From an uncultured Ruminococcus sp. (GTDB lineage Bacteria > Bacillota > Clostridia > Oscillospirales > Acutalibacteraceae), in NCBI GenBank assembly GCA_902763365.1, contig CACWRT010000014.1, forward strand, positions 1 through 37,168: 37,168 nucleotides of DNA, given 5' to 3'. Shown one piece after another: positions 14 through 37,168 of this stretch (its first letter is position 1; each line of letters starts with the position of its first letter). The translations under genes and the position numbers were made by a program. The notes below the pieces were generated by a model, which searched no databases, was not told the DNA's origin, and worked only from the letters and a program-made list of their open reading frames with translations.

Positions 14-120
14 TGAGCTGCTCAAGAAGCCTGATACGCGGTCAGTACAGCATGAACCGCAAGTTCAGAGCGGATGCGCAGCGGAGCGATACCCGCGTTA
101 CGGGACCGGCGGCTCGCCGG
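14..120 (+). repeat. Dispersed nested-palindrome element, module B, copy 1
   Basis: Full-length copy of the repeat seen again at 21857-21951(-), 26511-26627, 28895-28998(-) and 31811-31919. The left end GAGCTGC can pair with the right end GCGGCTC, using one G-U wobble. ACGCGG pairs with CCGCGT further in, and TGAAC/GTTCA forms a small inner hairpin. The right end is the short palindrome CCGGCG-GCT-CGCCGG. It ends 15 bases before the -35 box of the next gene. The function is unknown. Confidence 0.85.
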
Positions 121-1327: not shown

Positions 1328-1388
1328 ATTTAAAACAGAACTGCCCCAAGCGAGCGCTGTAGATATGAGGCACGCGCGGCTCGCCGGG

Positions 1389-1480: not shown

Positions 1481-3163
1481 ATGATAAGTGATGCAGTAAG
1501 CTGTGGAACACAGTGCGCACCTCAGCGTTCTCTTCTGAGAGCGTTGGGAATGACAGATGAGGAAATAGCAAAACCAATGATCGGTATAGTAAGCTCCTAT
1601 AATGAGATAGTACCCGGTCATATGAACATCGACAAGATAGTAAATGCCGTAAAGCAGGGCGTTGCTATGGCAGGCGGAAATCCTGTGGTATTCCCCGCTA
1701 TTGCTGTATGTGACGGAATAGCAATGGGTCATAAGGGTATGAAGTATTCCCTTGTTACCCGTGACCTTATAGCAGATTCAACGGAAGCTATGGCTATAGC
1801 TCATGCTTTCGATGCACTTGTAATGGTTCCGAACTGTGATAAGAATGTTCCGGGACTGCTTATGGCAGCTGCAAGACTGAATATACCGACTATATTTGTA
1901 AGCGGCGGACCTATGCTTGCAGGAAGAGTAAAGGGTGAAAAAAGAAGCCTTTCAAGTATGTTTGAAGCAGTGGGCTCTTACAATTCAGGAAAAATAAGTG
2001 CCGAAGAGCTTGATGAATTTGAAAATAAAGTATGTCCCAGCTGCGGTTCATGTTCGGGTATGTATACCGCAAACTCTATGAACTGCCTGACCGAAGTACT
2101 CGGTATGGGTCTGAGAGGCAACGGCACAATACCTGCCGTTTATTCCGAAAGAATAAGACTTGCAAAACACGCAGGCATGAAGATCATGGAACTTCTTGAG
2201 AAAAATATCCGTCCCCGTGATATAATGACGGAGGATGCCTTCAGAAATGCGCTTACAATGGATATGGCTCTGGGCTGCAGTACCAACAGTATGCTTCATC
2301 TTCCGGCTATAGCACATGAGTGCGGTATTGATCTTAATCTTGATATTGCAAATGAGATCAGCTCAAAAACACCTAATCTCTGCCACCTTGCGCCGGCAGG
2401 TCATACATATATGGAAGACCTTAACGAAGCAGGCGGTATCTATGCCGTAATGAACGAGATAAATAAGCTTGGGCTGCTTAAAACCGACCTTATCACCTGT
2501 ACAGGCAAAACAATAGCCGAGAATATCAGCGGTGTGCTCAATAAGAATCCCGAGATAATCCGTCCCGTAGAAAATCCCTACAGTAAAACAGGCGGTATCG
2601 CTGTACTCAGAGGTAATCTTGCCCCCGACTCCTGTGTAGTCAAGCGCAGCGCGGTCGCTCCCGAAATGCTCAAACATTCAGGCCCCGCAAAGGTTTATGA
2701 CTGCGAGGAAGATGCAATGGCAGCTATCAACGGCGGTGAAATCGTAGACGGTGATGTTGTGGTTATCCGCTATGAAGGACCTAAGGGCGGTCCCGGTATG
2801 AGAGAAATGCTCAATCCCACATCCGCAATTATGGGCAGAGGTCTGGGCAGTACAGTAGCACTTATAACAGACGGACGTTTCTCCGGCGCAACAAGAGGCG
2901 CCGCAATCGGTCATGTATCTCCGGAAGCAGCTGTAGGCGGTCCTATTGCTCTTGTCAAAAACGGGGATATAATTGAAATAGATATAAATGCAAATACCAT
3001 AAACGTTCAGCTCAGCGAAGAGGAATTTGCTAAGCGTAAAGCAGAATGGAAACCGAGAGAACCAAAGATAACAACAGGTTATCTTGCAAGATATGCGTCA
3101 CTCGTTACATCAGGAAACAGAGGCGCCGTTCTTGAAGTTCCCAGCTGTAATATAAGCAAGTAA
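1481..3163 (+). CDS. ilvD: Dihydroxy-acid dehydratase
   Basis: Cytoplasmic Fe-S dehydratase that converts 2,3-dihydroxyisovalerate or 2,3-dihydroxy-3-methylvalerate to the 2-keto acids, the third shared step of valine and isoleucine synthesis (also feeding leucine). At 560 residues it has the family's usual length. Likely cluster ligands are Cys77 (AVCDG), Cys119 (NCDKNVPG) and Cys191 in [16 protein letters not shown]. The C-terminal [18 protein letters not shown] region is intact. It is a lone gene here, with no ilvB, ilvC, ilvE or leu genes nearby and its own strong promoter. The ribosome binding site (AGGCAGG) is weak. A sugar-acid dehydratase of the same superfamily is unlikely given the motif match. 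Confidence 0.96.
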
Positions 3164-21856: not shown

Positions 21857-21951
21857 GCGACGAGCCGCCGCACCCTTAACGCGGGTATCGCTACGCTCTG
21901 AACTCGCAGTTCATGCTTCACTGCCCGCGTATCAAGCTTTTGTAGCGGCTT
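21857..21951 (-). repeat. Dispersed nested-palindrome element, module B, copy 2
   Basis: On the minus strand it starts with AAGCCGC and ends with GCGGCTCGTCGC. The AGCCGC/GCGGCT outer stem, the ACGCGGG/CCCGCGT stem and a perfect TGAACT-GCG-AGTTCA hairpin are all present. The right end abuts the AAGGAGG of the aconitase gene with no gap, so the element would form the 5' leader of that message. Confidence 0.85.
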
Positions 21952-22073
21952 ATTTTTGCTATATAGTTCGTATTGCTATAAAACCATACCGAGCACTATA
22001 AACTTTGAAATGCCATACTTTGAGCTAAAAGCTTTGAACTGCGAAGCTGCGTATCGGACTTTTTGAGCGGCTC
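21952..22073 (-). repeat. Module A repeat with truncated module B left end
   Basis: On the minus strand, 22073 to about 22046 is a left-end fragment of module B (GAGCCGCTC then GATACGC). It is followed by module A (CTTCGCAGTTCAAAG, TAGCTCAAAG, GTTTATAGTG, GGTTTTATAGC), which leads straight into full module B at 21951. The same A-then-B order occurs at 31609-31919. Confidence 0.75.
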
Positions 22074-22129
22074 ATTTTTAAAATTATAGATATATTATCC
22101 TTCAAAATGAATAATTTGTCAAGACTTTT

Positions 22130-25174: not shown

Positions 25175-26402
25175 AAGAACTGTAATTATCGGCGGCGGCG
25201 CGGCAGGACTTATGGCGGGTATCACTTCGGCACAGACGGGCAGCCGCACTGTTGTGATTGAGAAGAATAAAAAAGCAGGAAGAAAGCTGTATATAACAGG
25301 CAAGGGAAGATGTAATGTCTGTAATAACTGCGACGAAAAAACTGTAATAGCAAACGCCCCTACAAACGGAAAGTTCCTGTACAGCGCCCTCAGCCGTTTT
25401 TCACCGAAAGATACTATGGACTTTTTTGAAAAGCACGGATGTCCGCTTAAAACAGAAAGAGGCAGCCGTGTTTTTCCTGTGTCCGACAGGGCAGGAGATA
25501 TAGTTGATACACTTGTCAGGGTACTTGAAAATTCAGGCTGTGAGCTTTATAGTGATACTGTAAACGATATTCTCATCGAAAACGGTGAAATAAGGGGAGT
25601 AGTTCTGTCAGACGGCAGTACAATGGAGTGTGACAAGCTTATAATAGCAACAGGAGGAAAGTCCTATCCTCTTACAGGTTCTACCGGTGACGGATACGCC
25701 TTTGCCGAGAAGGCAGGACATACCATAAAACCCCTGCGTCCTTCTCTTGTACCGCTGGAAACGCAGGAGCATTTCGGATATGATGCGGAAGGACTGCTGC
25801 TGAAAAATGTATCGGTAAAGGTGATTGATACGGCAAAGAAAAACAAATGTATCTATACGGATTTCGGAGAAATTGAGCTGAGAAGATACGGACTGTCCGG
25901 CGCTGTGATACGCAGCGCATCCGCGCACATGAAAAACATGGAAAGCGGAAGATACCGTATTGAAATAGACTTGAAGCCCGCATTAAGCGAAGAAACCCTT
26001 GACGCAAGACTGTTAAGAGAGATAGAGAAAGCCAATACAGGAAAATATACCGATATACTCTGTACTCTCATGCCGAAAGCGCTTGTTGAAGATTTTGTAA
26101 AAATAAGCGGCATACCGTCCGATAAAAGATGCAGCGAGATAACAAAGCAGCAGCGTAAAACCATAATTGATACGCTAAAAAAACTGACGCGTACTGTAAC
26201 GGATTTTCGTCCGCTTGAAGAAGCCATAGTAACCTCGGGAGGAGTCAGTGTAAAGGAAATAGACCCGAAAACAATGGAATCCAGACTTGTAAAAGGACTG
26301 TATTTCGCCGGAGAAGTAATAGACGTTGACTGTTATACAGGCGGCTTCAATTTGCAGACAGCTTTCTCAACAGGCGTCCTCGCGGGCAGTAATAATGAAT
26401 AG
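25164..26402 (+). CDS. HI0933/BaiN-family FAD-dependent oxidoreductase
   Basis: Predicted cytoplasmic flavoprotein of 412 residues. The N-terminal dinucleotide fold VIIGGGAAGLMAGI binds FAD. TGKGRCNVCNNC follows at about residues 40-55, and ATGGKSYPLTGSTGDGY and the C-terminal GLYFAGEVIDVDCYTGGFNLQTAFSTG are family hallmarks. Reported BaiN-type members reduce steroid intermediates, but the substrate here is unknown. The frame is open from 25074. The GGGGAGG at 25151-25157, six bases before the TTG at 25164, fixes the start and overlaps the regulator's end, implying coupling. The final Glu codon and TAG stop come from the TGAATAATGAATAG repeat. Confidence 0.9.
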   Translation: MKNKRTVIIGGGAAGLMAGITSAQTGSRTVVIEKNKKAGRKLYITGKGRCNVCNNCDEKTVIANAPTNGKFLYSALSRFSPKDTMDFFEKHGCPLKTERGSRVFPVSDRAGDIVDTLVRVLENSGCELYSDTVNDILIENGEIRGVVLSDGSTMECDKLIIATGGKSYPLTGSTGDGYAFAEKAGHTIKPLRPSLVPLETQEHFGYDAEGLLLKNVSVKVIDTAKKNKCIYTDFGEIELRRYGLSGAVIRSASAHMKNMESGRYRIEIDLKPALSEETLDARLLREIEKANTGKYTDILCTLMPKALVEDFVKISGIPSDKRCSEITKQQRKTIIDTLKKLTRTVTDFRPLEEAIVTSGGVSVKEIDPKTMESRLVKGLYFAGEVIDVDCYTGGFNLQTAFSTGVLAGSNNE

Positions 26403-26444
26403 TGAATAATGAATAGTGAATAATGAATAGTGAATAATGAATAA
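26391..26444 (+). repeat. TGAATAATGAATAG tandem repeat, copy 4
   Basis: Nearly four units of the motif. The tract begins within the last three codons of the flavoprotein gene and supplies the TAG stop at 26400-26402. Confidence 0.9.
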
Positions 26445-26510
26445 TCAAGCGGCATATGCGGTAAGAATTGAAGGAGAGTTAAGTAAGCGGCAAAGGACAA
26501 AGTGAAAAAA

Positions 26511-26627
26511 GAGCCGCTCAAAAAGCCTGATACGCGGGCAGTAAAGTATGAGCGGCGAGTTCAGAGCGGATGCGAAGCGGAGCGATACCCGCGTTAAGGG
26601 TCCGGCGTCACGCCGGCGGCTCGCCGG
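26511..26627 (+). repeat. Dispersed nested-palindrome element, module B, copy 3
   Basis: Full copy with an outer GAGCCGC/GCGGCTC stem and an ACGCGGG/CCCGCGT stem. Near the right end it has an extra CCGGCG-TCA-CGCCGG hairpin. The right end runs directly into the purine-rich ribosome binding site of the gene at 26645, leaving 17 bases to the ATG. Confidence 0.9.
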
Positions 26628-26644
26628 GGAGAGGAGAGAAGTAA

Positions 26645-27058
26645 ATGGGATTTCAGGATGACTGGATGATGAGACAGATAGAGATGATGGCGAAGTTTGT
26701 TGCGAATGTTGTATTCGGGAAGAAGGATTCGCAGGTTGAGTATGAGATAGTCGGGGACATAAACGATACCAATACGCTCACTCCGACAGATATTCTGCAC
26801 CTTGAGCTTATGAAGATGATAAGGGAAGGTCTTTACGGAGAAGCCGAGGATATGCTTTTTGAGAATATGCAGTATAATGACAAATACATTGAGCTTTCCA
26901 CAGATTTCTATAAACGACTGAATGATCTCAGCAATGAACAGCTTGAAGCGGGCGGTTTTTCCCGTGATGAGGTATATGACGGCTATATTGAAATAATGTC
27001 GCTTTTAGGTGTGCCGATAGATGTTTTCGGACAGGCAGACAGAAGCGATTATCAGTGA
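26645..27058 (+). CDS. Conserved hypothetical protein (DUF6483-like)
   Basis: Soluble, acidic, mostly helical protein of 137 residues. The N-terminus MGFQDDWMMRQIEMMAKFVANVVFGKK (MRQI then FLAK/FVAN-FGK) is typical of a small Clostridial family I recall as DUF6483, with the pair of helices at about 50-110 looking TPR-like. The function is unknown. GAGAGGAGAG precedes the ATG by a few bases and is fused to the end of a dispersed repeat. It is an isolated gene, with a small membrane peptide gene 85 bases downstream. Confidence 0.65.
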   Translation: MGFQDDWMMRQIEMMAKFVANVVFGKKDSQVEYEIVGDINDTNTLTPTDILHLELMKMIREGLYGEAEDMLFENMQYNDKYIELSTDFYKRLNDLSNEQLEAGGFSRDEVYDGYIEIMSLLGVPIDVFGQADRSDYQ

Positions 27059-27143
27059 CCTGTTTAATTAATTATCAGAATAAAAAACAGCATGACAGCA
27101 TATAATGAAAAGGGAGATCATCTTTTCATTCGGAGGTGCGGTC

Positions 27144-27284
27144 ATGCTTTTATTTTTGACAGGGATGACAGTGGGGATATCCATAGGGGTAATATGTATG
27201 GCATTGCTTACAGCGGCATCCGATTCGGACAGGGATGCCGAGATGATGCAAAACAGAAGGAAAAAAACAGCAGACAATAACTGA
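27144..27284 (+). CDS. 46-residue membrane peptide (DUF3789-like)
   Basis: Tiny gene starting at the ATG at 27144, six bases after GGAGGT. The product begins MLLFLTGMTVGISIGVICMAL, a single membrane helix with glycine-spaced residues, followed by an acidic then basic tail (SDSDRDAEMMQNRRKK). This resembles DUF3789 peptides found in Clostridia, whose function is unknown. It is followed at once by an intrinsic terminator, which supports a real short transcript. Confidence 0.65.
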   Translation: MLLFLTGMTVGISIGVICMALLTAASDSDRDAEMMQNRRKKTADNN

Positions 27285-27290
27285 ATCCCG

Positions 27291-27326
27291 GGCAGATCGT
27301 ATGAAAATATGGTCTGCTCTTTTTTG
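27291..27326 (+). terminator. Intrinsic terminator upstream of spoIIIAA
   Basis: GCAGATC pairs with GGTCTGC (one G-U pair) around an A-rich loop and is followed by a run of T. It separates the 46-residue peptide gene from the spoIIIA operon. Confidence 0.85.
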
Positions 27327-27410
27327 TCGGAATTTTTGTGGTCTATTATTGGCATTAGCTTTCTATAATTGACTATAACCAAAAGAAATGAACCGGAAAG
27401 GAGAAAGCAG

Positions 27411-28358
27411 ATGGATCGCAGTGTAAGCATCAAAGCATTTGACGAAACCGCAAAAATGATAAGCGGGACACTATCGGAAACACTTCTTCGCCTGCCCGCA
27501 AATAAAAAACCGTATATTCAGGAAATAAGATTGCGCAGCGGACGCGCAGTCGCGCTGACCGAAGGAAACGAAACCATTTTCATGTGCCGTGACGGAACAG
27601 TACTCTATACCCCCACAGAAAGGGCTGTAATATGTTCAAGACAGGATATACATGATACATTCAAAAGCATCTGCGGCTATTCGGTCTACAGCAGACAAAG
27701 CGAAATAAATAACGGCTATATCACAGCACCAAACGGCAGCCGCATAGGTATCTGCGGTACGGCAAACCTGAAAAACGGCGAAATAACCTCAATCACCGAT
27801 ATAACCACAATGAATATACGTATCTCACGCCAGATATTCGGTGCGGCAGATGAGATAATAAAACGCTTGTTTCCGCTGAGAAACGGTATTCTTATTGCAG
27901 GACCGCCCACAAGCGGAAAAACAACAATACTTCGTGATATAGCCTATAACATATCCTTAGGAAAAAGCACGGGAATAAAAAGAACCTGCATAATTGACGA
28001 AAGGGGTGAGATATCGGGAGGAATTAACGGCAATATAGATACGGGGCTTTCGGATGTGCTTGTGGGATACCCGAAATCTTTGGGTATCATACAGGCAATA
28101 AGATCCCTTTCTCCGCAGGTAATAATATGCGACGAGGTGGGAACCTCCGAGGATGTCAGGACAGTATTGCAGGGCGCAAATGCAGGCGTATACATTATAG
28201 CTACCATACATTCCGACAGTTTTGAATCCCTTATGAAAAGAAAACAGGGAAGAGAGCTTTTAGCTTCGGGAGCATTCGGGAATGTTGTTGTTCTTGATAA
28301 TGAATCGGGCGCAGGCCGCATCAAAGAATGGATAGATACAGAAATGCTGCCTGCATAG
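27411..28358 (+). CDS. spoIIIAA: Stage III sporulation protein AA
   Basis: Cytoplasmic ATPase of the SpoIIIA-SpoIIQ channel, made in the mother cell and needed to maintain the engulfed forespore. It resembles type II/IV secretion ATPases. It has 315 residues with Walker A GPPTSGKT at 164-171, an acidic box CIIDERGE (193-200) and QVIICDEVGTSEDV as Walker B. A TTG at 27369 is in frame, but AAAGGAG about seven bases before the ATG at 27411 decides the start. A weak sigma-E-like pair (TCTATTA near 27342, CTATAATT near 27363) precedes it. It is the first of eight genes in the usual order. Confidence 0.95.
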   Translation: MDRSVSIKAFDETAKMISGTLSETLLRLPANKKPYIQEIRLRSGRAVALTEGNETIFMCRDGTVLYTPTERAVICSRQDIHDTFKSICGYSVYSRQSEINNGYITAPNGSRIGICGTANLKNGEITSITDITTMNIRISRQIFGAADEIIKRLFPLRNGILIAGPPTSGKTTILRDIAYNISLGKSTGIKRTCIIDERGEISGGINGNIDTGLSDVLVGYPKSLGIIQAIRSLSPQVIICDEVGTSEDVRTVLQGANAGVYIIATIHSDSFESLMKRKQGRELLASGAFGNVVVLDNESGAGRIKEWIDTEMLPA

Positions 28359-28378
28359 TGAAAAAAGGGGGAACAAGA

Positions 28379-28888
28379 ATGGTTGTAAAGCTGATCGGTG
28401 GAATACTTATCGTAATGTGCGGAATGTTTACGGGGATGTACCTTTCGGGAAAGACAAGGGAAAAGACGCTGTTTTTGCAGCAGTATATATCATTTCTGAC
28501 TCAGACAAAGGCCATGATAGAATACTCGGGAGAAAATATAGGAAATGTGCTTCTTAGAGTACATTCCGTACCGCTGATGGATCATCTTATAGGTGAAGTA
28601 ACGGGGATGCTTGATTCGGGTGTGGATTTTGCATCAGCATGGATCAAAGCGGCAGGACATTCTGCTGAGAGAAACGAATTTGACAGAGCTGATCTTCCAC
28701 TTGTTATGGATTTCGGCGATGGATTCGGAGAACGAGATGCGGCAAGAGAAGGCGCAAAAATACAGCTTGTGATAAACAATGTCACATCAAGACTCGAACA
28801 ATCCGAAAAGGACAGCCTGATAAAACAAAGACTATACAGAACAGTAGGAACATTCTGCGGTATACTTATCGCCGTTGTACTTATTTAA
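28379..28888 (+). CDS. spoIIIAB: Stage III sporulation protein AB
   Basis: Membrane protein of the sporulation channel, related to GspF-type secretion platform proteins. It has 169 residues. An N-terminal membrane helix (about 3-21) is followed by a helical domain with FLTQTKAMIEYSGENI and FGDGFGERDAAREGAKIQL, and a C-terminal helix GTFCGILIAVVLI. The frame is open from 28328, overlapping spoIIIAA. The GGGGGAACAAGA site fits the ATG at 28379, which gives the normal N-terminus MVVKLIGG. It stops six bases before an inverted copy of the dispersed element. Confidence 0.93.
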   Translation: MVVKLIGGILIVMCGMFTGMYLSGKTREKTLFLQQYISFLTQTKAMIEYSGENIGNVLLRVHSVPLMDHLIGEVTGMLDSGVDFASAWIKAAGHSAERNEFDRADLPLVMDFGDGFGERDAAREGAKIQLVINNVTSRLEQSEKDSLIKQRLYRTVGTFCGILIAVVLI

Positions 28889-28894
28889 TGACCG

Positions 28895-28998
28895 TCGAGC
28901 CGCCGGTCCCATAACGCGGGTATCGCTCCGCTGACGCTGCGCTCTGTCTGAACAGCTTATGGTGTACTGACCGCGTATCAGGCTCTCTGAGCGGCTCT
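28895..28998 (-). repeat. Dispersed nested-palindrome element, module B, copy 4
   Basis: On the minus strand it has GAGCCGC at the left end, ACGCGG/CCGCGT inside and GCGGCTC at the right end. The inner hairpin segment has diverged. It is oriented against the spoIIIA operon and abuts the spoIIIAB stop codon. Confidence 0.85.
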
Positions 28999-29089
28999 TT
29001 ATCGCATTATGGATTTAATGCTATTGTTATCTGATTTTTGCGATAAAGCTTGTGACACGAGTTGGTGTAAAATGATTCTGGGAAAACTA

Positions 29090-29246
29090 AATTCTTCAAT
29101 AATTTTGAGCGAGGAATACAAAATAACAGGCGATAAAAAAGTAATAACCGCGACAAATAAAGGCAGCAGTGACGAGTTCAGAGCGGAACGTAGTGAAGCG
29201 AATCCCGCGTTAAGGGTCCAGCGTCACGCTGGCGGCGGCTCGCGAG
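29090..29246 (+). repeat. Variant (class 2) repeat, copy 1
   Basis: The right half matches module B from GAGTTCAGAGCGG to GCGGCTCGCG. The left half is different and is shared with 36986-37130, including the blocks AAAATAACAG, AAAAGTAATAACCGCGAC and AAATAAA. It ends 21 bases before the spoIIIAC start codon. Confidence 0.8.
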
Positions 29247-29266
29247 GTCACAGGAGAATAGGGTAA

Positions 29267-29461
29267 ATGAATATTGATTTTATTTTCAAAATAGCTGCAA
29301 TCGGTATAATAGTAGCTGTGCTCAGCCTTGTTCTTTCACGTTCGGGGAGGGAAGAACAGGCTATGATGACTACGCTTGCAGGTCTTGTAGTGGTGCTTCT
29401 GATGCTTGTAGAAAAAATATCGGAGCTTTTCACCACAATAGAAAGCCTGTTCGGATTCTGA
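29267..29461 (+). CDS. spoIIIAC: Stage III sporulation protein AC
   Basis: Small channel membrane protein, 64 residues, the usual size. Two hydrophobic helices, about 4-21 (FIFKIAAIGIIVAVLSLVLS) and 30-48, are joined by a basic/acidic turn SRSGREEQ, as in the family. The ribosome binding site is AGGAGAATAGGG. The stop codon overlaps the spoIIIAD start by one base (ATGA), so the two are coupled. Confidence 0.94.
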   Translation: MNIDFIFKIAAIGIIVAVLSLVLSRSGREEQAMMTTLAGLVVVLLMLVEKISELFTTIESLFGF

Positions 29462-29853
29462 TGGAAATAGTTACATTGTGTGCGGCAGCGGTAACAGCCG
29501 TTATAGCAGCAGCAGGACTCAAAAAGTATTCCCCCGAAACAAGCATAATGCTGTCTTTGGCATGCGGTGTAATGATACTTCTGACAATACTTCCGAAGTT
29601 TACCCCTGTGTCTGATGAGATAAACAGGCTTATAGGTATGAGCGGACTTGACAGCTCCTATGCAGAGGTTCTTATAAAAACAATAGGCATATGTATACTC
29701 GGTAAATTCACGACCGATCTTTGTAATGACAACGGATACACGTCCCTTGGTTCAAAAATAGAATTTGCATCCAGATTATCCGTACTGATAATATCTCTGC
29801 CCCTGTATGGAAATGTGATAAATATGGCTGCGGATCTTCTGGGTGTATCATAG
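29461..29853 (+). CDS. spoIIIAD: Stage III sporulation protein AD
   Basis: Membrane protein of the same channel, 130 residues, related to SpoIIIAC and lengthened by further helices. Conserved stretches include AGLKKYSPETSIMLSLACG, YAEVLIKTIGICILGKFTTDLCNDNGYTSLGSKIE and the C-terminal PLYGNVINMAADLL. No separate ribosome binding site is visible, which fits translational coupling to spoIIIAC. Confidence 0.95.
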   Translation: MEIVTLCAAAVTAVIAAAGLKKYSPETSIMLSLACGVMILLTILPKFTPVSDEINRLIGMSGLDSSYAEVLIKTIGICILGKFTTDLCNDNGYTSLGSKIEFASRLSVLIISLPLYGNVINMAADLLGVS

Positions 29854-29864
29854 GCAGGAGAAAA

Positions 29865-31004
29865 ATGAAAAAAATTATTTGTATAATATCTGCGGTAACT
29901 CTGATATTTCTGTTTCCCTTAACGGTCTGTGCCGCAGACGGGAATGAAGCAGAAGAACTGTACCGCGACCAGCTGTCGGCAAGCGGCGCAGGCAGTCTGC
30001 ATGAACAGCTGCCCGAGGAAACAAAAAAGCTTCTCTCGGATATGGATGTTTCACTGGGCAGTATAGACGAACTGAGTTCCTTCAACGGCGGAAAAATAGT
30101 TGAAACAATTACATCTGTCATTGCCGAAAAAGGCAGGACGCCGATTCCTACAGCATTTGTTATACTCGGAGTCATGCTTCTTTGCGCATTTACAAACGGA
30201 TTTGAGATAAAAGCAGGAAAAGGCGTACAGGGAAACATTGTATCAGCGGCGGGTACTTTAGGTGTTTGCGGCGCAGTAATAGCTCCCGTTACCGATCTTA
30301 TAGTAAGGTCAGGAGAAGTAATACAGGGCGCATCGGGCTTTATGATGCTTTACGCTCCCGTTATGTCAGGGTTAATGATATCGTCAGCCCATGAAATACA
30401 GGGAAGCTCCTACTACACGCTGCTTATGGGAGCTTGTGAAGTCATAGGTATGCTGTCCTCGAAGATACTTTTTCCCGTAATAAAAATTTTTCTTGCTTTG
30501 TCCATTACCTCGTCGGTATCACCCTCGCTGAATCTTTCGGGGATAACGGAGTCCCTCAGCAAGTGCATGAAATGGGTGATGAATTTTTCCCTCGGCATAT
30601 TTGTTACTATACTTACTGCCCAAAATCTTGTTACATCATCTCTTGATGACGTAAGTACCCGCGCGCTGCGGTTTGCCATGAATTCATTCGTTCCGGTAGT
30701 CGGCGGTGTTCTTGGAGAAGCTCTGGGAACATTCAGCGGCAGTCTTTCATTGCTGAAAAGCGGCACAGGTGTTTTTGTGATAATTGCTTCGGGCTGTATG
30801 TTTCTTCCGCTGCTGACAGAATGTCTGATATGGAGGATATGCTTTTTTCTTCTGGGAGAAGCAGCCGATATTCTGGGCATAGCGCCTGTGAGATCGGTAA
30901 TGAAAGCGATCGGCGCAGTATTATCACTCATAACGGCAGTAATGCTGACAATACTTGTAATATTTATAATTTCTACCGTGATAGTTCTTATAGTAGGGAA
31001 ATAA
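29865..31004 (+). CDS. spoIIIAE: Stage III sporulation protein AE
   Basis: Large membrane component of the sporulation channel, 379 residues. A cleavable-looking signal (MKKIICIISAVTLIFLFPLTVCAAD) is followed by a short external segment and then about seven hydrophobic helices from about residue 85 to the C-terminus (FVILGVMLLCAFTNGFE, FMMLYAPVMSGLMIS, FVPVVGGVLGEALGTF, TAVMLTILVIFIISTVIVLIV). It follows spoIIIAD by 11 bases with a GGAG site and has the normal family length. Confidence 0.95.
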   Translation: MKKIICIISAVTLIFLFPLTVCAADGNEAEELYRDQLSASGAGSLHEQLPEETKKLLSDMDVSLGSIDELSSFNGGKIVETITSVIAEKGRTPIPTAFVILGVMLLCAFTNGFEIKAGKGVQGNIVSAAGTLGVCGAVIAPVTDLIVRSGEVIQGASGFMMLYAPVMSGLMISSAHEIQGSSYYTLLMGACEVIGMLSSKILFPVIKIFLALSITSSVSPSLNLSGITESLSKCMKWVMNFSLGIFVTILTAQNLVTSSLDDVSTRALRFAMNSFVPVVGGVLGEALGTFSGSLSLLKSGTGVFVIIASGCMFLPLLTECLIWRICFFLLGEAADILGIAPVRSVMKAIGAVLSLITAVMLTILVIFIISTVIVLIVGK

Positions 31005-31057
31005 GCAGTTTGTCGGGAAGAGTTCGTTTTTTATGAAAGGATTTTGGTATTAAGGCG

Positions 31058-31537
31058 GTGATAAAGCTGGACGAGATAAATTCATGGACAATGGCAGTAT
31101 GTATATGTTGTGTAATAGCCTGTCTTGCAGAAATGCTGATACCCGACCCGAAATATGAAAAAACTGTACGTTTTGTACTTGGAAGTCTTATGCTTTGCGC
31201 AATGATCGAACCTTTAAGGAGTATCACGGCAGACAGTGTACAGATAAGTGACAGCTTTGATATTGAATATGAAGCAGATACGGAACAGATGAGAAAAACA
31301 GAGAAACAGTATATAGAGAAAAAACTTGCCGATACCGTAAAAGACAAGCTTACAGAAAAAAATATCGAACTGAACAGTATTTCGGTAAATGTGGGATATG
31401 ATGAAGAGAACGTGCCTGTATCCGTAAGCTGCCGTGCGGTTTTGGCTGAAAAGGACAGCAGAAATATCGGTACAGTAAGGAAAGAGATAGCCGAAATACT
31501 TGGTGACGAAAGTATTATTACAGTTTCCGCAGAATAA
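31058..31537 (+). CDS. spoIIIAF: Stage III sporulation protein AF
   Basis: Channel protein anchored by two N-terminal helices (about 9-27 and 36-52) with a C-terminal domain facing the intermembrane space. It has 159 residues. The start is uncertain. GTG at 31058 is annotated here, but the nearest strong site, AAAGGA (31036-31041), is 16 bases away and would fit an in-frame ATT at 31049. The domain from about 85 has NSISVNVGYDEENVPVSVSCRAVL, consistent with the ring-building fold of the family. Confidence 0.9.
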   Translation: MIKLDEINSWTMAVCICCVIACLAEMLIPDPKYEKTVRFVLGSLMLCAMIEPLRSITADSVQISDSFDIEYEADTEQMRKTEKQYIEKKLADTVKDKLTEKNIELNSISVNVGYDEENVPVSVSCRAVLAEKDSRNIGTVRKEIAEILGDESIITVSAE

Positions 31538-31608
31538 AAATCATATTTGACTGTACGGCGCATAAGATGATAACATGGGAAGTTGATACTGACAGTACAA
31601 AAAGGCAT

Positions 31609-31800
31609 AGCGGCTTCGCAGCTCAGAGCTAAGGGCTCAGAGCTCAGAGCTATGGCGGCTCGGATTTAATAAATGCTTAAAGTGGTTTTATAGCGATACC
31701 CGAGGGCTTCGCAGCTCAAAGCAGTTAGCTATTAGCTCAAAGCGTGGCGGCTCATGGTTTATAGTGTTTAGAGTGATTTTATAGCGATACAAACTATGAA
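31609..31800 (+). repeat. Two tandem module A repeats
   Basis: Two units of about 95 bases. Each has CTTCGCAGCTC, repeated AGCTCAGAGC or AGCTCAAAGC words, GGCGGCTC and TTTTATAGCGATAC in the same order. They precede module B directly, as a single module A does at 21952-22045(-). The internal AGCTC words make the region slippage-prone. Confidence 0.75.
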
Positions 31801-31810
31801 ATAACCAAAA

Positions 31811-31919
31811 ATGAGCCGCTGCCAAAGCCTGATACGCGGTCAGTACAGCATGAACTGCGAGTTCAGAGCGGATGCGCAGCGGAGCGATACCCGCGTTACG
31901 GGTCCGGCGGCTCGCCGGG
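31811..31919 (+). repeat. Dispersed nested-palindrome element, module B, copy 5
   Basis: Full copy with GAGCCGC/GCGGCTC, ACGCGG/CCGCGT and a perfect TGAACT-GCG-AGTTCA inner hairpin. It ends 49 bases before the spoIIIAG start codon in the same orientation. Confidence 0.9.
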
Positions 31920-31967
31920 GTTCGCCGGCGAAAATGTAACTGACTTAACAGATCGGAGCAGAAGAAT

Positions 31968-32570
31968 ATGAAAGACAAAGATAATGAAGCGGCTTTGACC
32001 GAAAATAAAAAGGCGCTGAGCAGGCTCCTGAGCAATGACAGGATACTCAGCATAATAGTAATGCTGGGGATTGCGGGGATAGCGCTGATATTTATATCAT
32101 CTTATCTTTCCCCCGTCAGCAGTGACAGTGAAACAAATACCGAAGAAATAAGCGATACCGATACGTTTTCTGAAAATTACAAAAATGAACTGACAGAGGA
32201 ACTGGGGAACATGATAGCAAGTATTGACGGAGCAGGCAGAACGAAGGTTATGATAACACTGGAAGGAACTGTACGCGACGTATATGCGGCGGACACCGAT
32301 ACAAACGGCAAGGAGTCCTCAAGAAAGACAGACAGCAATGAAAATGCGGACAAGCAGAATACCGAAAAGAAAACATATACCATTATAAGAGGACGTGACG
32401 GATCGGAAAAGGCGCTTTCAATAGGTCAGCTGCTTCCCGAAATAAAAGGAGTGCTGGTGGTGTGTGACGGAGGGGACAGGGAAGATGTGAAGGAAAAAAT
32501 AATACAGGCAGTTTCTGCTGCATTGAATATTACAAGATCACATATATATGTTACAGCTTTGCAGAAGTAA
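31968..32570 (+). CDS. spoIIIAG: Stage III sporulation protein AG
   Basis: Forms the large ring of the SpoIIIA channel in the intermembrane space. It has 200 residues. A cytoplasmic stretch (1-20) and one membrane helix at about 26-46 (ILSIIVMLGIAGIALIFISSYL) are followed by a polar linker. The ring-building domain contains LGNMIASIDGAGRTKVMITLEG, a hydrophilic insert rich in Asn, Lys and Glu, and the C-terminal LPEIKGVLVVCDGGDREDVKEKIIQAVSAALNI. All match the family. The ribosome binding site (GGAGCAG) is modest. It is separated from spoIIIAF by a repeat block. Confidence 0.93.
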   Translation: MKDKDNEAALTENKKALSRLLSNDRILSIIVMLGIAGIALIFISSYLSPVSSDSETNTEEISDTDTFSENYKNELTEELGNMIASIDGAGRTKVMITLEGTVRDVYAADTDTNGKESSRKTDSNENADKQNTEKKTYTIIRGRDGSEKALSIGQLLPEIKGVLVVCDGGDREDVKEKIIQAVSAALNITRSHIYVTALQK

Positions 32571-32612
32571 ATACATTTAAGTAATAAAAATTTGTAAACT
32601 GGGGGAATCATC

Positions 32613-33230
32613 ATGTCATTCGGTAAAAGACAATTGGTTATAGCATCTTTAGTGGTGGCTCTGGGAGCAGCAGTATATCTTAACTGGCAGTTTTCCGATG
32701 CTGAAAGCATAATGGAAACAAAAACGGAAACAGAATCTTCCGAAGTAAAACAACTGGGTCAGACAACATATGTAAATACCGAGCTTACCGCAGAAAGCTC
32801 CGAGATAAAGCAGCAGTCACAGAATTCATCGCCGGAGAGCAGTAAAGCAGCCTCCGAAAGCTCCGCCGATAACGGTTTTTTCTCCGAACAAAGGGTAAAA
32901 AGGGATAAAGGAAATGAGCAGGCGCTCGAAATAATGACAGATGTGATAGGCTCACAGGAGGAAAACGGGGCTAAAAAAGAGGAAGCGCTCAGTTCGGCAG
33001 AAAAATTGTCCGATACTATTAAAAAACAGACCGATCTTGAAAATGAGATACGCATAAAAGGATTTGAAGATGCTTTTGTTACTCTTAATAACGGCAGCTG
33101 CAGCGTCAGCGTTTACGGAAAAGAGCTTGATGACGCAGCCGTTATTATGATAAAAGATATGGTCAACAGACAAACGGGAGTGGAATTCGACAGTATAACC
33201 GTTACTCAGGCGAGAAAAGACGGAAAATAA
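32613..33230 (+). CDS. spoIIIAH: Stage III sporulation protein AH
   Basis: Mother-cell partner of forespore SpoIIQ across the intermembrane space. It has 205 residues. One N-terminal membrane helix (about 6-22, LVIASLVVALGAAVYLNW) is followed by a long Ser/Glu-rich linker (about 25-100). The C-terminal YscJ/FliF-like domain ends MIKDMVNRQTGVEFDSITVTQARK. The linker has repeated SSE motifs. It is the last gene of the operon. A GGGGGAATCATC site precedes the ATG. No spoIIQ or lytM-type partner gene lies in the window. Confidence 0.93.
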   Translation: MSFGKRQLVIASLVVALGAAVYLNWQFSDAESIMETKTETESSEVKQLGQTTYVNTELTAESSEIKQQSQNSSPESSKAASESSADNGFFSEQRVKRDKGNEQALEIMTDVIGSQEENGAKKEEALSSAEKLSDTIKKQTDLENEIRIKGFEDAFVTLNNGSCSVSVYGKELDDAAVIMIKDMVNRQTGVEFDSITVTQARKDGK

Positions 33231-33420
33231 TTCCCAAAATGAGAATATTACAATCTTGTAATAAAAGTGTAAAAAAATTATAACCAAATGAGTATAATGT
33301 GTTTCTTAAAAATAGGCGAAAATTTAGTATAAAATCCTCAAAACGGCATTGAATATTATGTGTAAAGTGCTAAAGTTGCAATTTAGGAGAAATTTTTTTC
33401 GAATAATCGGCATTATTTTC

Positions 33421-33449
33421 TTGCAATAATTGTTAAAAGATTGTAATAT
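33421..33449 (+). promoter_or_regulatory. Probable promoter of the C39-like secreted protein
   Basis: TTGCAA (33421-33426) and TAATAT (33444-33449) have 17-base spacing in an AT-rich 257-base intergenic region. An ACGGAGGTC ribosome binding site follows before the ATG at 33488. Nothing else was recognised in the region. Confidence 0.5.
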
Positions 33450-33487
33450 ATATATGGTCAAATAAAAACTACGGAGGTCATTATTTA

Positions 33488-35182
33488 ATGAAACCTAAGA
33501 AACTACTATCAGTTCTTCTTTGCACTTTAGCAATTTCACCCGTTTGTATGATAGGCTTAACTAATAGCACCAATGCAGTTAATATGTCTGATCTTAACGC
33601 TTCTGACGTTTTTGTAAAGCAGCAGGAAAGCGATACCTGTACGCTGGCATCGAATGTAATGCTTCTCAGAAGGGCGGCTATCCTCAGGGGTGACAGCAAC
33701 TGGAGATCAATTACAGAAAGCGCCTGCCGTTCGACCTTGTGGGTAGAAGGCTGCGGAATGAGATTCAGCTATACTTACAATGGTATCAGCGTAAACTGCG
33801 GCAGAATATACGGTGATTCGACCGAAACACTTAAACAGCTTCTCAGAGAGCATCCCGAAGGAATAGTAGCATATGATTACGATCATCCTCACGCAATAAT
33901 GCTTACAGGCTATTCGGACGGAGTATTTTACTGTTCCGATCCTGCAAGATGCTGCGGAGAAGGAATAATAGATGCGAGAGACTCACTGATAAGTACCTCG
34001 GGTATTGAGGCGTATTGGTATGTGACAAGCTCGCTTCCGTCGCTTTCAACATCGTATTCATCATCCTCTGTCAAAAACACCTCAAGTCTCAGTTCGGCTG
34101 AGATCGCGCTGGGAAATAAGGTAACAATATACGGCAATGCGGAAAATGCGGACGGCAGTGTTGTTTATACTTATCAGTATAAGCAGTCAGCCAATTCCGA
34201 ATGGAAGACCATAGGAAACGCGCAGACAAATAAAAACAGTCTGAAATTCCTGCCGAAGGCTGAGACAAGCTATGATATAAAGGTAATTGCCGAGGACGAA
34301 AGCGGAAATACAAGCGAGAAAACAATGAAGCTTACCGTAAAGGAAGAGCTTGGCAATAACAGCTATATTGATACAGCAGAAATAAGCTATGGAAACGATG
34401 TAACCGTATACTTCGGCGCGCAGGGCGGCGTAGGAAAGTATCAGTACGAAGTAGATGTAAAGAAACCCAGTGTAGACGGTTATATTCGCCTTAAAAACTA
34501 TTCTTCAGCAAGTACAATGACATATCATCCCTGGGAAACAGGTGATTATACACTCAGGATCAATGCAAAAGACGGTCTCGGAAATATATCTTCAAGGCTT
34601 GTTTCCTTTAAAGTCGGATATCAGCCTCTTGAGAATGTATCAGATACAGATAAGGGTTCAATGCAGTTCGGTGAAGATCTGAAATTCTCACTTTCAACCA
34701 CAGGCGGCGCAGGCGGAGTAAGCTATGAAGTAAAAGCCCTGAAGCCCAGCGGTGATTCATGGATAACACTCAGAAAGAACTGCACATCATCTTCCTATGT
34801 ATATCATCCATGGGAAGCAGGTACATACAGATTCAAGGTAGTTGCAACAGATAAAAAAGGCAATATTGCCAATAAGCTTTTTACAATGTTTGTAAATGCG
34901 GATAGACTTGATAACGCATCATCACTTGAATCATCCACTGTTGATTACGGTTCTGATCTTGTTATCATGACGGCAGCAAACGGTGGTACAGCTTCATATA
35001 AATATGAGCTTAACATAATGAAGCCCAGTGGCAGCGAATGGATCAATCTCAGGAAGTACAGCTCCTGCGGAGCATCTGTAAAGTACCATCCATGGGAGAA
35101 AGGCGTATACAGCATTTGCGTTAATGTGATGGATTCATCGGACAATGTGGCAAGCAGATATTTTACATTCCGTGTAGTATGA
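33488..35182 (+). CDS. Secreted C39-like cysteine protease with four C-terminal beta repeats
   Basis: Exported protein of 564 residues. The signal peptide (1 to about 30, ending TNA) is followed by a papain-like/C39-like domain (about 38-180). Likely catalytic Cys51 is in QQESDTCTLAS, His135 in DHPHAIMLTGY and Asp151 in CSDPA. A Ser-rich linker (180-202) leads to four repeats of about 85-90 residues. Three of these share YHPWE-x-G-x-Y followed by a D-x-x-x-N-x-x-S/A ending (triple-tyrosine-motif style). The repeats probably bind wall or polysaccharide (inference). In C39 families Cys-His enzymes cut leader peptides or wall-linked proteins, and the substrate here is unknown. There is no LPxTG or dockerin. 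It is a single-gene unit with a terminator. Confidence 0.82.
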   Translation: MKPKKLLSVLLCTLAISPVCMIGLTNSTNAVNMSDLNASDVFVKQQESDTCTLASNVMLLRRAAILRGDSNWRSITESACRSTLWVEGCGMRFSYTYNGISVNCGRIYGDSTETLKQLLREHPEGIVAYDYDHPHAIMLTGYSDGVFYCSDPARCCGEGIIDARDSLISTSGIEAYWYVTSSLPSLSTSYSSSSVKNTSSLSSAEIALGNKVTIYGNAENADGSVVYTYQYKQSANSEWKTIGNAQTNKNSLKFLPKAETSYDIKVIAEDESGNTSEKTMKLTVKEELGNNSYIDTAEISYGNDVTVYFGAQGGVGKYQYEVDVKKPSVDGYIRLKNYSSASTMTYHPWETGDYTLRINAKDGLGNISSRLVSFKVGYQPLENVSDTDKGSMQFGEDLKFSLSTTGGAGGVSYEVKALKPSGDSWITLRKNCTSSSYVYHPWEAGTYRFKVVATDKKGNIANKLFTMFVNADRLDNASSLESSTVDYGSDLVIMTAANGGTASYKYELNIMKPSGSEWINLRKYSSCGASVKYHPWEKGVYSICVNVMDSSDNVASRYFTFRVV

Positions 35183-35191
35183 TTTTTAAGG

Positions 35192-35223
35192 GGACAGCCG
35201 TATAGTTCGGCTGTTCTTTTTTT
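35192..35223 (+). terminator. Intrinsic terminator of the C39-like gene
   Basis: ACAGCCG/CGGCTGT is a 7-bp stem with a seven-base loop, followed by an unbroken T-run. It begins about 10 bases after the stop codon. Confidence 0.9.
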
Positions 35224-35258
35224 AGAGTAATGCTCAAATTATGCAGGGAGGAAATGCT

Positions 35259-35810
35259 TTGGAAACACTGACGGTAAAAAGAAATGAAGGCAAAAAAGAG
35301 ATAAAGACAGCATTTGTTTTTTCATGTCCGGGGCAGGAAGAGCTCAAAAGCGGAAAGCTTGTAAACGGACAGACAGGGAAAAATCTTGACGGGATGTTAT
35401 CCATACTGAAACAGCAGTATCCGGATATATTTCCCTCAGCTGACAGATATGACTACAGGATAACCAATTCATCTGAGAATGTGCATTATAAGGCGCTGGA
35501 TAACAGAAGCGAACCAAAAACAAAGGAAATAACCGCTCCCGAAAACCTGAAACGGCTGTATGATGATCTTTGCGGGTATGAGTATATAATAACCTTCGGA
35601 CGCTGCGCTGCGCTTGCAGTGGAAGAGATGCTCGGAAATAATAATATTTCGGGCGTAAAGACAATGTATTCACGTCATTTGTCTTTCCTGAGCCTTAACA
35701 GCTCCATAAAAACCGATATAAACGGAGAACCTATCCCCAGAGGAGATAAAAACGGTACATATAAAAGGCTTGAGGTTGCGGCAAAGAATATATCAGACCA
35801 GCTTGTGTAA
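35259..35810 (+). CDS. Uracil-DNA glycosylase-superfamily-like protein
   Basis: Soluble protein of 183 residues. The N-terminal VFSCPGQEE and GQTGKNLDGML blocks look like the GxDPG/GxxTGxxL region of the uracil-DNA glycosylase fold. The ITNSSENVHYKAL segment and the C-terminal ITFGRCAALAVEEML and SRHLSFLSLN follow the same order as family members (the His near SRHLSF may match the second motif). Enzyme activity is uncertain, and many members of this group are uncharacterised. An ATG at 35241 overlaps the AGGGAGG site itself, so the in-frame TTG at 35259, seven bases after the site, is chosen. Confidence 0.65.
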   Translation: METLTVKRNEGKKEIKTAFVFSCPGQEELKSGKLVNGQTGKNLDGMLSILKQQYPDIFPSADRYDYRITNSSENVHYKALDNRSEPKTKEITAPENLKRLYDDLCGYEYIITFGRCAALAVEEMLGNNNISGVKTMYSRHLSFLSLNSSIKTDINGEPIPRGDKNGTYKRLEVAAKNISDQLV

Positions 35811-35817
35811 AAATAAA

Positions 35818-35856
35818 GACCGGAGCAGATCAGTGTAGACTGAACCTGCTTCGGTC
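35818..35856. terminator. Intrinsic terminator between the UDG-like and S1 genes
   Basis: GACCGGAGCAG pairs with CTGCTTCGGTC (one G-U pair) and is followed on the plus strand by ATTTTTTATT. It lies between convergent genes and mainly serves the plus strand. Confidence 0.85.
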
Positions 35857-35871
35857 AGATTTTTTATTCGC

Positions 35872-36837
35872 TTACAGACACTTTCTGAGAAGAACAGGAT
35901 CCTGTCTTTGCATGAATTCAAAATCTGTTTCGATCAGCTTGTCGGAAACAGAAGGTGAATAAACAAAGTGATCCATATGGTCGTCATGATAAAAGTATTC
36001 GGGCTGGGGAGGACAGTAGTCATAATCAAAGGTGTCAATGATAATGAGCTTTATTTTCATTCTTGAGGGGATGATATTTTTTATAAAAACGCTTGCCTGC
36101 TGACCCGCACGGATATTATCCTTCATTTCCGCAAGACCTGCCAGATTAGGCGCAAGCTCAACAAAAGCGCCGTAATCCTCGACTGAACGGATAATACCTG
36201 CAACAGTTTCACCAATATCAAAACGAGCGGCATTTTCTTCCCAGGTACCCAGAAGCTCCTTGTGAGTCAGACTGATCCTGTTTCCCTCGAAGGATCTGAC
36301 TACCGCTTTAATATCCATACCTACTCTGAATCTTTCCCTTGGATGATCTATTCTTGACACAGAGATCGAGTCAATAGGTATCAGAGAAACGATACCGCAG
36401 CCAATGTCGGCGAAAGCCCCGAAAGAATCCAGATGAGTTACCTTAGCGTCAATAACATCGCCGGGGATAAGCTGTCTGATATATTCATCCATACATCTTT
36501 CCTGAGCAATTCTTCTTGAGAGGACGGCGATAGTTTTTCCCATTTCATTTTTTCTCAGATCGGTTATTACAAAACAAACAGGTCTGTTTACACGGGAGAT
36601 TACCGCAATATCACGTACAGTACCTTCCCGTATTCCTATAGCGCCTTCTTCCCGTGGGATAATGCCCTTGATGACCCCGAGATCAACAATAAGATTGTGT
36701 GAGCAGTCACATACAATAGCTTTTGCCTCAAGTATGCGCCCTTCGTGCCAGGCTTCCGTAATAGAAGCCAAAGACTGCATAGCGTTCAGATTTTCGGTCG
36801 TACCAATTAGTTTACCTTCAGGATAATATCCTGTCAT
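35872..36837 (-). CDS. S1 RNA-binding domain protein
   Basis: Cytoplasmic RNA-binding protein of 321 residues. An N-terminal degenerate S1-like fold (about 30-75: GRILEAKAIVCDCSHNLIVDLGVIKGIIPREE) is followed by two clearer S1 domains. One is at about 125-190 (GDVIDAKVTHLDSFGAFADIGCGIVSLIPI, with RISLTHKELLGTWEENA) and one at about 205-270 (GETVAGIIRSVEDYGAFVELAPNLAGLAE). A tyrosine/acidic C-terminal tail follows. It is shorter than ribosomal protein S1 and is a Clostridial S1-like factor. A role in translation or mRNA handling is likely, but the target is unknown. AAAGGA lies about 11 bases before the ATG. The gene is monocistronic. Confidence 0.85.
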   Translation of the reverse strand: MTGYYPEGKLIGTTENLNAMQSLASITEAWHEGRILEAKAIVCDCSHNLIVDLGVIKGIIPREEGAIGIREGTVRDIAVISRVNRPVCFVITDLRKNEMGKTIAVLSRRIAQERCMDEYIRQLIPGDVIDAKVTHLDSFGAFADIGCGIVSLIPIDSISVSRIDHPRERFRVGMDIKAVVRSFEGNRISLTHKELLGTWEENAARFDIGETVAGIIRSVEDYGAFVELAPNLAGLAEMKDNIRAGQQASVFIKNIIPSRMKIKLIIIDTFDYDYCPPQPEYFYHDDHMDHFVYSPSVSDKLIETDFEFMQRQDPVLLRKCL

Positions 36838-36931
36838 TTTGCTTCATTCCTTTCCTGAGGCAATGCCTCTGACTCTTTTCTTAACATTTATATGAACTTA
36901 AACGGCACATTATGCCGGGAAAGCTTTTATA

Positions 36932-36958
36932 ATTAATAGTGAATAATGAATAATGAAA
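36932..36958 (+). repeat. TGAATAATGAATAG tandem repeat, copy 5
   Basis: About two diverged units (TTAATAGTGAATAATGAATA), in intergenic DNA upstream of the S1 gene on the opposite strand. Confidence 0.7.
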
Positions 36959-36985
36959 TAGTAACCTATATCTACCGATTATTAC

Positions 36986-37130
36986 TAAATTATTTAAAAG
37001 TAACGGTGAGGAACATAAAATAACAGCCGATATAAAAGTAATAACCGCGACAAATAAAAGTTGCAGTGACGAGTTCAGAGCGGAGCGTAAGCGCAGCGAT
37101 ACCCGCGTTACGGGACCGGCGGCTCGCCGG
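36986..37130 (+). repeat. Variant (class 2) repeat, copy 2
   Basis: It shares its left half (AAAATAACAG, AAAAGTAATAACCGCGAC, AAATAAA) with 29090-29246 and its right half (GAGTTCAGAGCGG to GGCGGCTCGCCGG) with module B. It points rightward, toward the window edge. Confidence 0.8.
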
Positions 37131-37168
37131 TTAGTGTAAAATTATAGTTGGCAAAAATATTAACAATG

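Follow-up and report, generated by a model that had tools for sequence, protein, structure and literature searches.

A modular, hairpin-ended repeat beside predicted promoters in an uncultured Ruminococcus genome

Repeat copies in the window and across genomes

The window, the 37,168-nucleotide stretch of DNA analysed here, is a whole contig (C14) of the 3.31-Mb, 211-contig genome of an uncultured Ruminococcus sp., hereafter the host genome. All five full copies of a dispersed element that an earlier note had reported from the window were found in place. They score 84.7-128.1 bits with a family covariance model, values that are not independent evidence because the 40 copies from which the model was built include them. 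The model search added two plus-strand copies of a divergent class (alt), scoring 33.6 bits (model match 29126-29231) and 48.2 bits (37023-37129). The features of the window are as follows.

14-120, plus strand: full main-class copy at the contig start, followed by a -35 box TTGAAT (about 135-140) and a -10 box TATACT (about 158-163)
1370-1388, plus strand: right-end remnant ending GCGGCTCGCCGGG, read by eye
about 21857-21952, minus strand: shortened main-class copy between the promoter and the Shine-Dalgarno sequence of acn (aconitase family)
22022-22074, minus strand: weak left block with heptamer leader (model E 0.4)
26511-26627, plus strand: the copy singled out by the earlier note, a long form with CCGGCGTCACGCCGG plus GCGGCTCGCCGG
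28893-28998, minus strand: copy between spoIIIAB and spoIIIAC, with a few nt separating its right end and the spoIIIAB stop codon
29126-29240, plus strand: divergent-class (alt) copy, with the spoIIIAC Shine-Dalgarno sequence shortly after its right end
31612-31760, plus strand: heptamer leader modules (GCTTCGCAGCTCAGAGC...GGCGGCTC) ahead of copy 31811-31919
31811-31919, plus strand: full main-class copy, about 49 nt before the ORF at 31968
37023-37130, plus strand: divergent-class (alt) copy, then the first part of a leader unit (GTTAGTGTAAAATTATA...), truncated where the contig ends
1129-1157, 22130-22166, 24122-24154, 26391-26445 and 36927-36964: heptamer arrays TAGTGAA/TAATGAA

The remnant at 1370-1388 abuts a perfect promoter, TTGACA-N17-TATAAT (1389-1417), upstream of ilvD (ORF 1481-3163), and copy 26511-26627 ends about 18 nt before the ATG at 26645 of a gene for a DUF6483 protein. 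No promoter matching at least 9 of 12 positions follows copy 31811-31919. The weak left block at 22022-22074 is the first part of the same acn-leader insertion as copy 21857-21952, and copies 28893-28998 and 29126-29240 form an inverted pair. The intergenic heptamer arrays constitute a second dispersed repeat, some of them near the element.

The unit is modular, comprising an AT-rich leader, a left block (GAGCCGC..CTGATACGCGG), a core (CAGAGCGGATGCGAAGCGGAGCGATACCCGCG) and a right GC hairpin (CCGGCG-GCT-CGCCGG). Among 113 leaders, 54 are of the GTTAGTG type, 26 of the CATGGCATC type, 9 and 4 of two further types, and 20 unclassified. Tandem right-end units of 27, 35 or 41 nt follow 41 of 192 copies, and the next leader unit follows 25 of the 192. 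In 27 of the 178 copies with a complete hairpin, the 3' half of a hairpin comes next, in 12 of these 27 with a length of only 5-6 nt. Repeated modules and numerous intergenic copies give the element the modular build of a BOX-like small interspersed repeat. Separately, GAGCAGCTCATTTTTT may be a candidate minus-strand terminator.

One copy used as a BLAST query matched 71 places in its own genome, itself included. The left block CTGATACGCGG, with at most one mismatch, occurs at 260 places versus 32 for a reversed control, and the core pattern at 216 versus 0. From the host genome, the covariance model recovered at least 150 copies that are complete or nearly so; loci fetched through this list favour the full-length main class and under-sample the divergent class. 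Because 49 of the 150 listed copies start less than 400 nt from a contig start, the true copy number is likely higher, and in practice the repeat is likely to interrupt the assembly of these genomes.

Among 250 family genomes drawn, which contained only two other members of the genus, the core pattern occurs 41 times in G077 (same genus) and at most twice in each of the remaining 248, in dissimilar sequences where these were printed. Under strict filters, model matches are present in at least 12 of 64 genus genomes, host included; G077 had none with the model, which therefore misses diverged forms and makes 12 a lower bound. BLAST matched 6 of 40 relatives, the host genome included, and all six belong to the genus. 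A scan of a species-genome collection, with a pattern written to exclude the main class of the host genome, found only uncultured Ruminococcus sp. RUG12914 and uncultured Clostridiales RUG132 among named assemblies. These share identical DNA with G065 and G047, respectively, both of the same genus; RUG presumably marks rumen assemblies. No match to the element was found in phage and plasmid records, nor in viral contigs with one exact main-class pattern. The element is, as far as these sequence searches extend, apparently restricted to one Ruminococcus-type genus, and searches of the open-access literature listed no comparable repeat from Ruminococcus or related bacteria.

Placement at promoters and order within arrays

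Promoters were predicted by sequence after the 128 terminal copies with enough flank, and a sigma-A-like promoter (at least 9 of 12 positions) lies within 90 nt after 98 of them. The median distance between the hairpin end and the start of the -35 box is 11 nt (0-33 nt in 92 of the 98), and the -35/-10 spacer is 17 nt in 89 of the 98. Mononucleotide-shuffled flanks gave a mean of 15.2 and a maximum of 25 such promoters, while control stretches gave 11/125 at 400-494 nt downstream and 3/52 at the same distance upstream. On the left side, a close outward promoter accompanies 13 of 46 leftmost copies and none of 11 leader starts. The other 30 of the 128 terminal copies lack a promoter of at least 9/12, and several of these abut a Shine-Dalgarno sequence. 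In relatives, a promoter follows 31 of 56 terminal copies (25 have none), against 3.6 in shuffles and 8/54 further downstream. Since the rule holds in these diverged relatives, it seems to belong to the element. A promoter carried as part of the mobile unit was rejected on account of the varying offset and sequence of the -35 box.

The copies fall into 131 clusters, in 128 of which all copies share one orientation. With genes called as longest ORFs, both neighbours were resolved for 36 arrays; 9 clusters were unresolved, 3 of mixed orientation, and the rest too near the locus end. The downstream gene is co-directional in 108 cases, opposite in 11 and none was resolved in 3, the 108/119 being partly due to divergent gene pairs. 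The upstream gene is near random in direction (22 co-directional, 19 opposite, 5 without resolution). The 36 arrays comprise 16 in divergent, 15 in tandem forward, 3 in tandem reversed and 2 in convergent settings, with significant differences between forward and reversed tandem (p = 0.0075) and between divergent and convergent (p = 0.0013). On contig C33, two back-to-back arrays each abut their own outward promoter.

The promoters beside the element also differ in their spacers. GGGG occurs in the spacer of 25 of the 98 element-abutted promoters versus 2 of 89 other perfect promoters (Fisher 3.9e-6), in sets chosen differently: a match of at least 9/12 for the former, perfect matches for the latter. 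Two of the 89 proved to be element-abutted (C33:9120 and window 1389), and after they were moved the comparison set stood at 1/87 (6.0e-7). Within 97 perfect promoters (of 103 in the genome, with 3 repeated sequences left out), GGGG is present in 5 of 10 element-abutted promoters versus 1 of 87 others (2.2e-5). One G-tract promoter pattern occurs at four places genome-wide, three of them behind an element. Examples of spacer G-tracts of at least four are C53:18027-18055, C72:106-134 and C138:116-144, and two relatives (L087, L132) show others on inspection by eye.

Orthologous sites revealed variable occupancy. The spoIIIAB-spoIIIAC spacer measures 378 nt in the host, filled by the inverted pair of copies. 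It ranges from -4 to 110 nt in the 28 relatives, out of 29, for which it could be resolved, and no copy was seen in the relatives' printed spacers. The acn promoter was recognisable by eye in the 24 relatives read (of 29). In the host, two element pieces lie between this promoter and the Shine-Dalgarno sequence, and hairpin-like stretches occur upstream of it in G012, G020 and G047. At dapL, the element lies upstream of the -35 box in the host and in G005, one of 21 relatives read (of 29). The 20 others have no clear copy, with a hairpin-like remnant in G020. The -35 and -10 boxes are outside the element, and by eye the dapL boxes exist in relatives that lack it.

These observations bear on the main rival explanation, selection for an upstream function. 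The element would then be domesticated regulatory or insulating DNA, its arrays selected for shielding the promoter, absorbing supercoils or binding a protein. Such a role would fit the tight, oriented abutment on -35 boxes in the host genome and relatives as well as the enrichment of spacer GGGG. It is nevertheless unlikely in our judgement, because most of the relatives read have dapL and acn promoters free of the element, which was seen at only about a tenth of the listed perfect promoters in the host (8/97, plus C33:9120 and window 1389 on inspection of part of the rest). Its occurrence before Shine-Dalgarno sequences within operons or leaders, and the near-random direction of the upstream gene, likewise argue against this explanation.

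Arrays that mix the two classes have a fixed order. In all 22 of them among the loci examined, the divergent class is promoter-distal (adjacent order 22 versus 0, p = 4.8e-7), and we infer that it is older than the main class. Among 14 pairs compared within main-class arrays, the promoter-proximal member is closer to the consensus in 10 (p = 0.21, not significant), so the direction of growth rests on the alt/main order. Of 49 leader-type units, 35 start at most 26 nt from the intact right hairpin of another copy, 8 inside a broken hairpin and 6 elsewhere, which places 43 of the 49 at or in a hairpin. Tandem duplication would give the same pattern for the 35 of 43 that follow an intact hairpin.

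A passive filler of dead space could arise if the repeat inserted anywhere between genes, and deletion bias and selection then trimmed the DNA until the repeat touched a functional signal. The abutment of -35 boxes and Shine-Dalgarno sequences alike agrees with this, and growth of the right end by 27-, 35- and 41-nt tandem units is consistent with slippage. However, passive filling predicts neither the orientation bias among tandem settings (15 versus 3), nor the scarcity of convergent sites (2 versus 16 divergent), nor the fixed order of alt then main copies, and we consider it quite improbable.

Base-pairing, target sites and candidate enzymes

The earlier note had proposed a mobile or cis-acting structured RNA under selection for nested stems. 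Its complementary words are indeed present (GAGCCGC, GCGGCTC, ACGCGG and CCGCGT, with TGAAC/GTTCA in several copies), but the structure built on them did not withstand analysis. The left word is GAGCTGC in copy 14-120 and AAGCCGC in copy 21857-21952. The former had been read as a tolerated G-U wobble; this C-to-T change is a common allele carried by 49 of 107 copies.

Across the same 107 copies, the right arm of the outer stem is GCGGCTC in 104 and the left arm is variable. All seven pairs are possible in 76 and impossible in 31; compensating changes were sought and none was seen. Mispairs amount to 67 G-U versus 22 A-C cells, mostly from the one common allele. Minimum-energy folds of two window copies leave the outer stem unused, and the consensus fold of 40 copies is without it.

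The second stem, ACGCGG/CCGCGT, centres on a self-complementary CGCG. Covariation seemed visible by eye, an impression that permutation tests do not bear out: exchanging arms between lineages gave equally good pairing (7986 of 20000 permutations at least as stable), and for the flanking pairs 4240 of 20000 permutations were at least as good. The test used 14 lineage labels from 12 genomes (RUG132 = G047, RUG12914 = G065, two labels for the host); 4 of 75 rows were left out as tandem partials, and the row own21951 is without a core.

Pairing is preserved through sequence changes only in the right hairpin, which remains perfectly paired across at least seven different stems with little wobble (CCGGCG at 195 places, CCAGCG 40, GCAGCG 13, GCGCCG 12, GCGGCG 12, CCGGCA 6 and GCGCAG 4). 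Stem and loop swap as a block, which looks like the exchange of DNA modules and not like base-by-base compensation. GCGGCTC is better explained as part of this local hairpin, CCGGCG-GCT-CGCCGG.

An RNA is favoured by the nested words, by hairpin pairing that survives several sequence changes, and by a folding z-score of -2.23 in one copy, though the score is only -0.78 in copy 26511-26627. Against it stand the lack of covariation in either stem and the consensus fold, in which a single pair of 26, located in the right hairpin, changed on both sides. The absence of any Rfam match also counts against an RNA and agrees with the earlier statement that the element has no named family: gathering cut-offs gave 0 matches over the whole window, and an E-value search of 26300-37168 gave one snoRNA match (E 0.82) below its cut-off. 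A copy situated upstream of a promoter is outside the mRNA of that promoter. Moreover, the upstream gene is divergent for 19 of the 41 leftmost arrays resolved, so those of the 19 arrays that lie upstream of a promoter belong to neither predicted transcript. This, together with the variable sites and the strong sequence differences between species, makes lineage-specific mobile DNA a better fit than an RNA gene, and we give the structured RNA very little credence.

The element is dispersed and possibly mobile, as had also been suggested, but its identification as a classical MITE was not sustained. Such an element, belonging to a DDE transposon and bounded by the 7-bp terminal inverted repeats GAGCCGC/GCGGCTC, would account for the many copies, the short inverted words near the ends and the lineage-specific presence. 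Yet the left arm is variable, and both words sit inside the leader and the hairpin, so that repeated sequence runs past both arms instead of ending there. In 24 flank pairs, some representing the same site twice, the mean best repeat was 0.83 versus 0.83 when permuted, with 256 of 500 permutations at least as high, which leaves no target duplication beyond chance. Up to 150 nt read after each of 13 left-only pieces gave no sign of a transposon gene. We regard a classical MITE as highly improbable. At one two-unit insertion (L052, contig C41), an 8-nt direct repeat, GCGATAAT, flanks the element and is the only candidate longer than 3 nt among the 24 pairs.

A genome search for PF01797 returned two genes, both IS200/IS605-type tnpA beside tnpB. 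Within this family, no transposase with element-like ends was found, and neither gene is a repeat-flanked, RAYT-type Y1 transposase without tnpB. IS200/IS605-type pairs act on single-stranded hairpins in general. By eye, one of the two genes (L105) has a divergent-class copy upstream. Mobilisation by IS605-type elements through shared ends was considered and set aside, because inspection by eye showed no likeness between their ends and the element. Two tandem repeats were also seen by eye: one with a unit of some 100 nt (CTGCTCTGAGCCCTGAGCTCTGAGC...), present about three times close to an IS605-type element (L105 2640-2880), and a short one, GAACGATGTTCTCACCTTTGAG, in several copies beside an IS605-type element (L104 70-180).

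A proposed mode of spread and known repeat systems

The best explanation, in which we place slightly more than even confidence and which is drawn from genome sequence, is that the element would be a non-autonomous, modular, palindromic mobile DNA repeat entering at hairpins beside promoters. Negative supercoiling from transcription might, conjecturally, extrude the GC hairpin upstream of promoters. A putative hairpin- or single-strand-acting enzyme, supplied in trans, could then insert a new unit at the extruded hairpin. Each insertion would bring a fresh hairpin, such that arrays would grow toward the promoter, and selection on the -35 box or the ribosome-binding site would presumably halt their growth.

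A more specific form of this proposal is offered only tentatively, as a possibility on the less likely side. It holds jointly that the repeat is a self-propagating hairpin cassette, landing in one orientation where GC hairpins are extruded immediately upstream of active promoters and regenerating its landing site, and that polar arrays grow promoterward at about a hundred loci per genome through an enzyme new to repeat families.

The ordered arrays constitute a relative record of insertions. The abutment of promoters makes testable how such repeats choose their sites, including a possible guiding role for supercoiling or hairpin extrusion upstream of promoters.

Several known systems share features with the element. 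REP/BIME palindromes, which are associated with RAYT transposases, are intergenic GC-rich palindromes in arrays whose hairpin is the likely recognised feature. The element likewise consists of GC-rich intergenic palindromes in arrays, but its unit is longer and composite, and the PF01797 genes found are of the IS200/IS605 type beside tnpB. Integron attC arrays consist of head-to-tail hairpin units, with growth presumed to occur at one end beside a promoter. The element also forms head-to-tail arrays of hairpin units; in contrast to attC arrays, it has no genes between the units in the arrays read and occupies many loci per genome. By description only, it can further be likened to the STAR elements of Staphylococcus, which are interspersed intergenic direct repeats of Firmicutes.

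According to the available parts of the sources, Correia elements of Neisseria are short repeats mapped immediately upstream of genes, as the element is, but unlike it they carry 26-bp terminal inverted repeats and promoters of their own (PMC10969869, PMC3049150). The closest likeness is to BOX of Streptococcus pneumoniae, described in the available part of the source as short modular Firmicute repeats with a variable number of modules, predicted hairpins and no proven enzyme (PMC3049150). In the same part of that source, BOX, RUP and SPRITE are over-represented between convergent genes, with BOX only slightly so between divergent ones (PMC3049150). Pneumococcal-type repeats thus pile up between convergent genes, presumably where they do least harm (PMC3049150, as far as available), and the element does the opposite. 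Set against BOX by description, it is rare at convergent sites and abuts promoters. The element is BOX-like, with a new placement rule.
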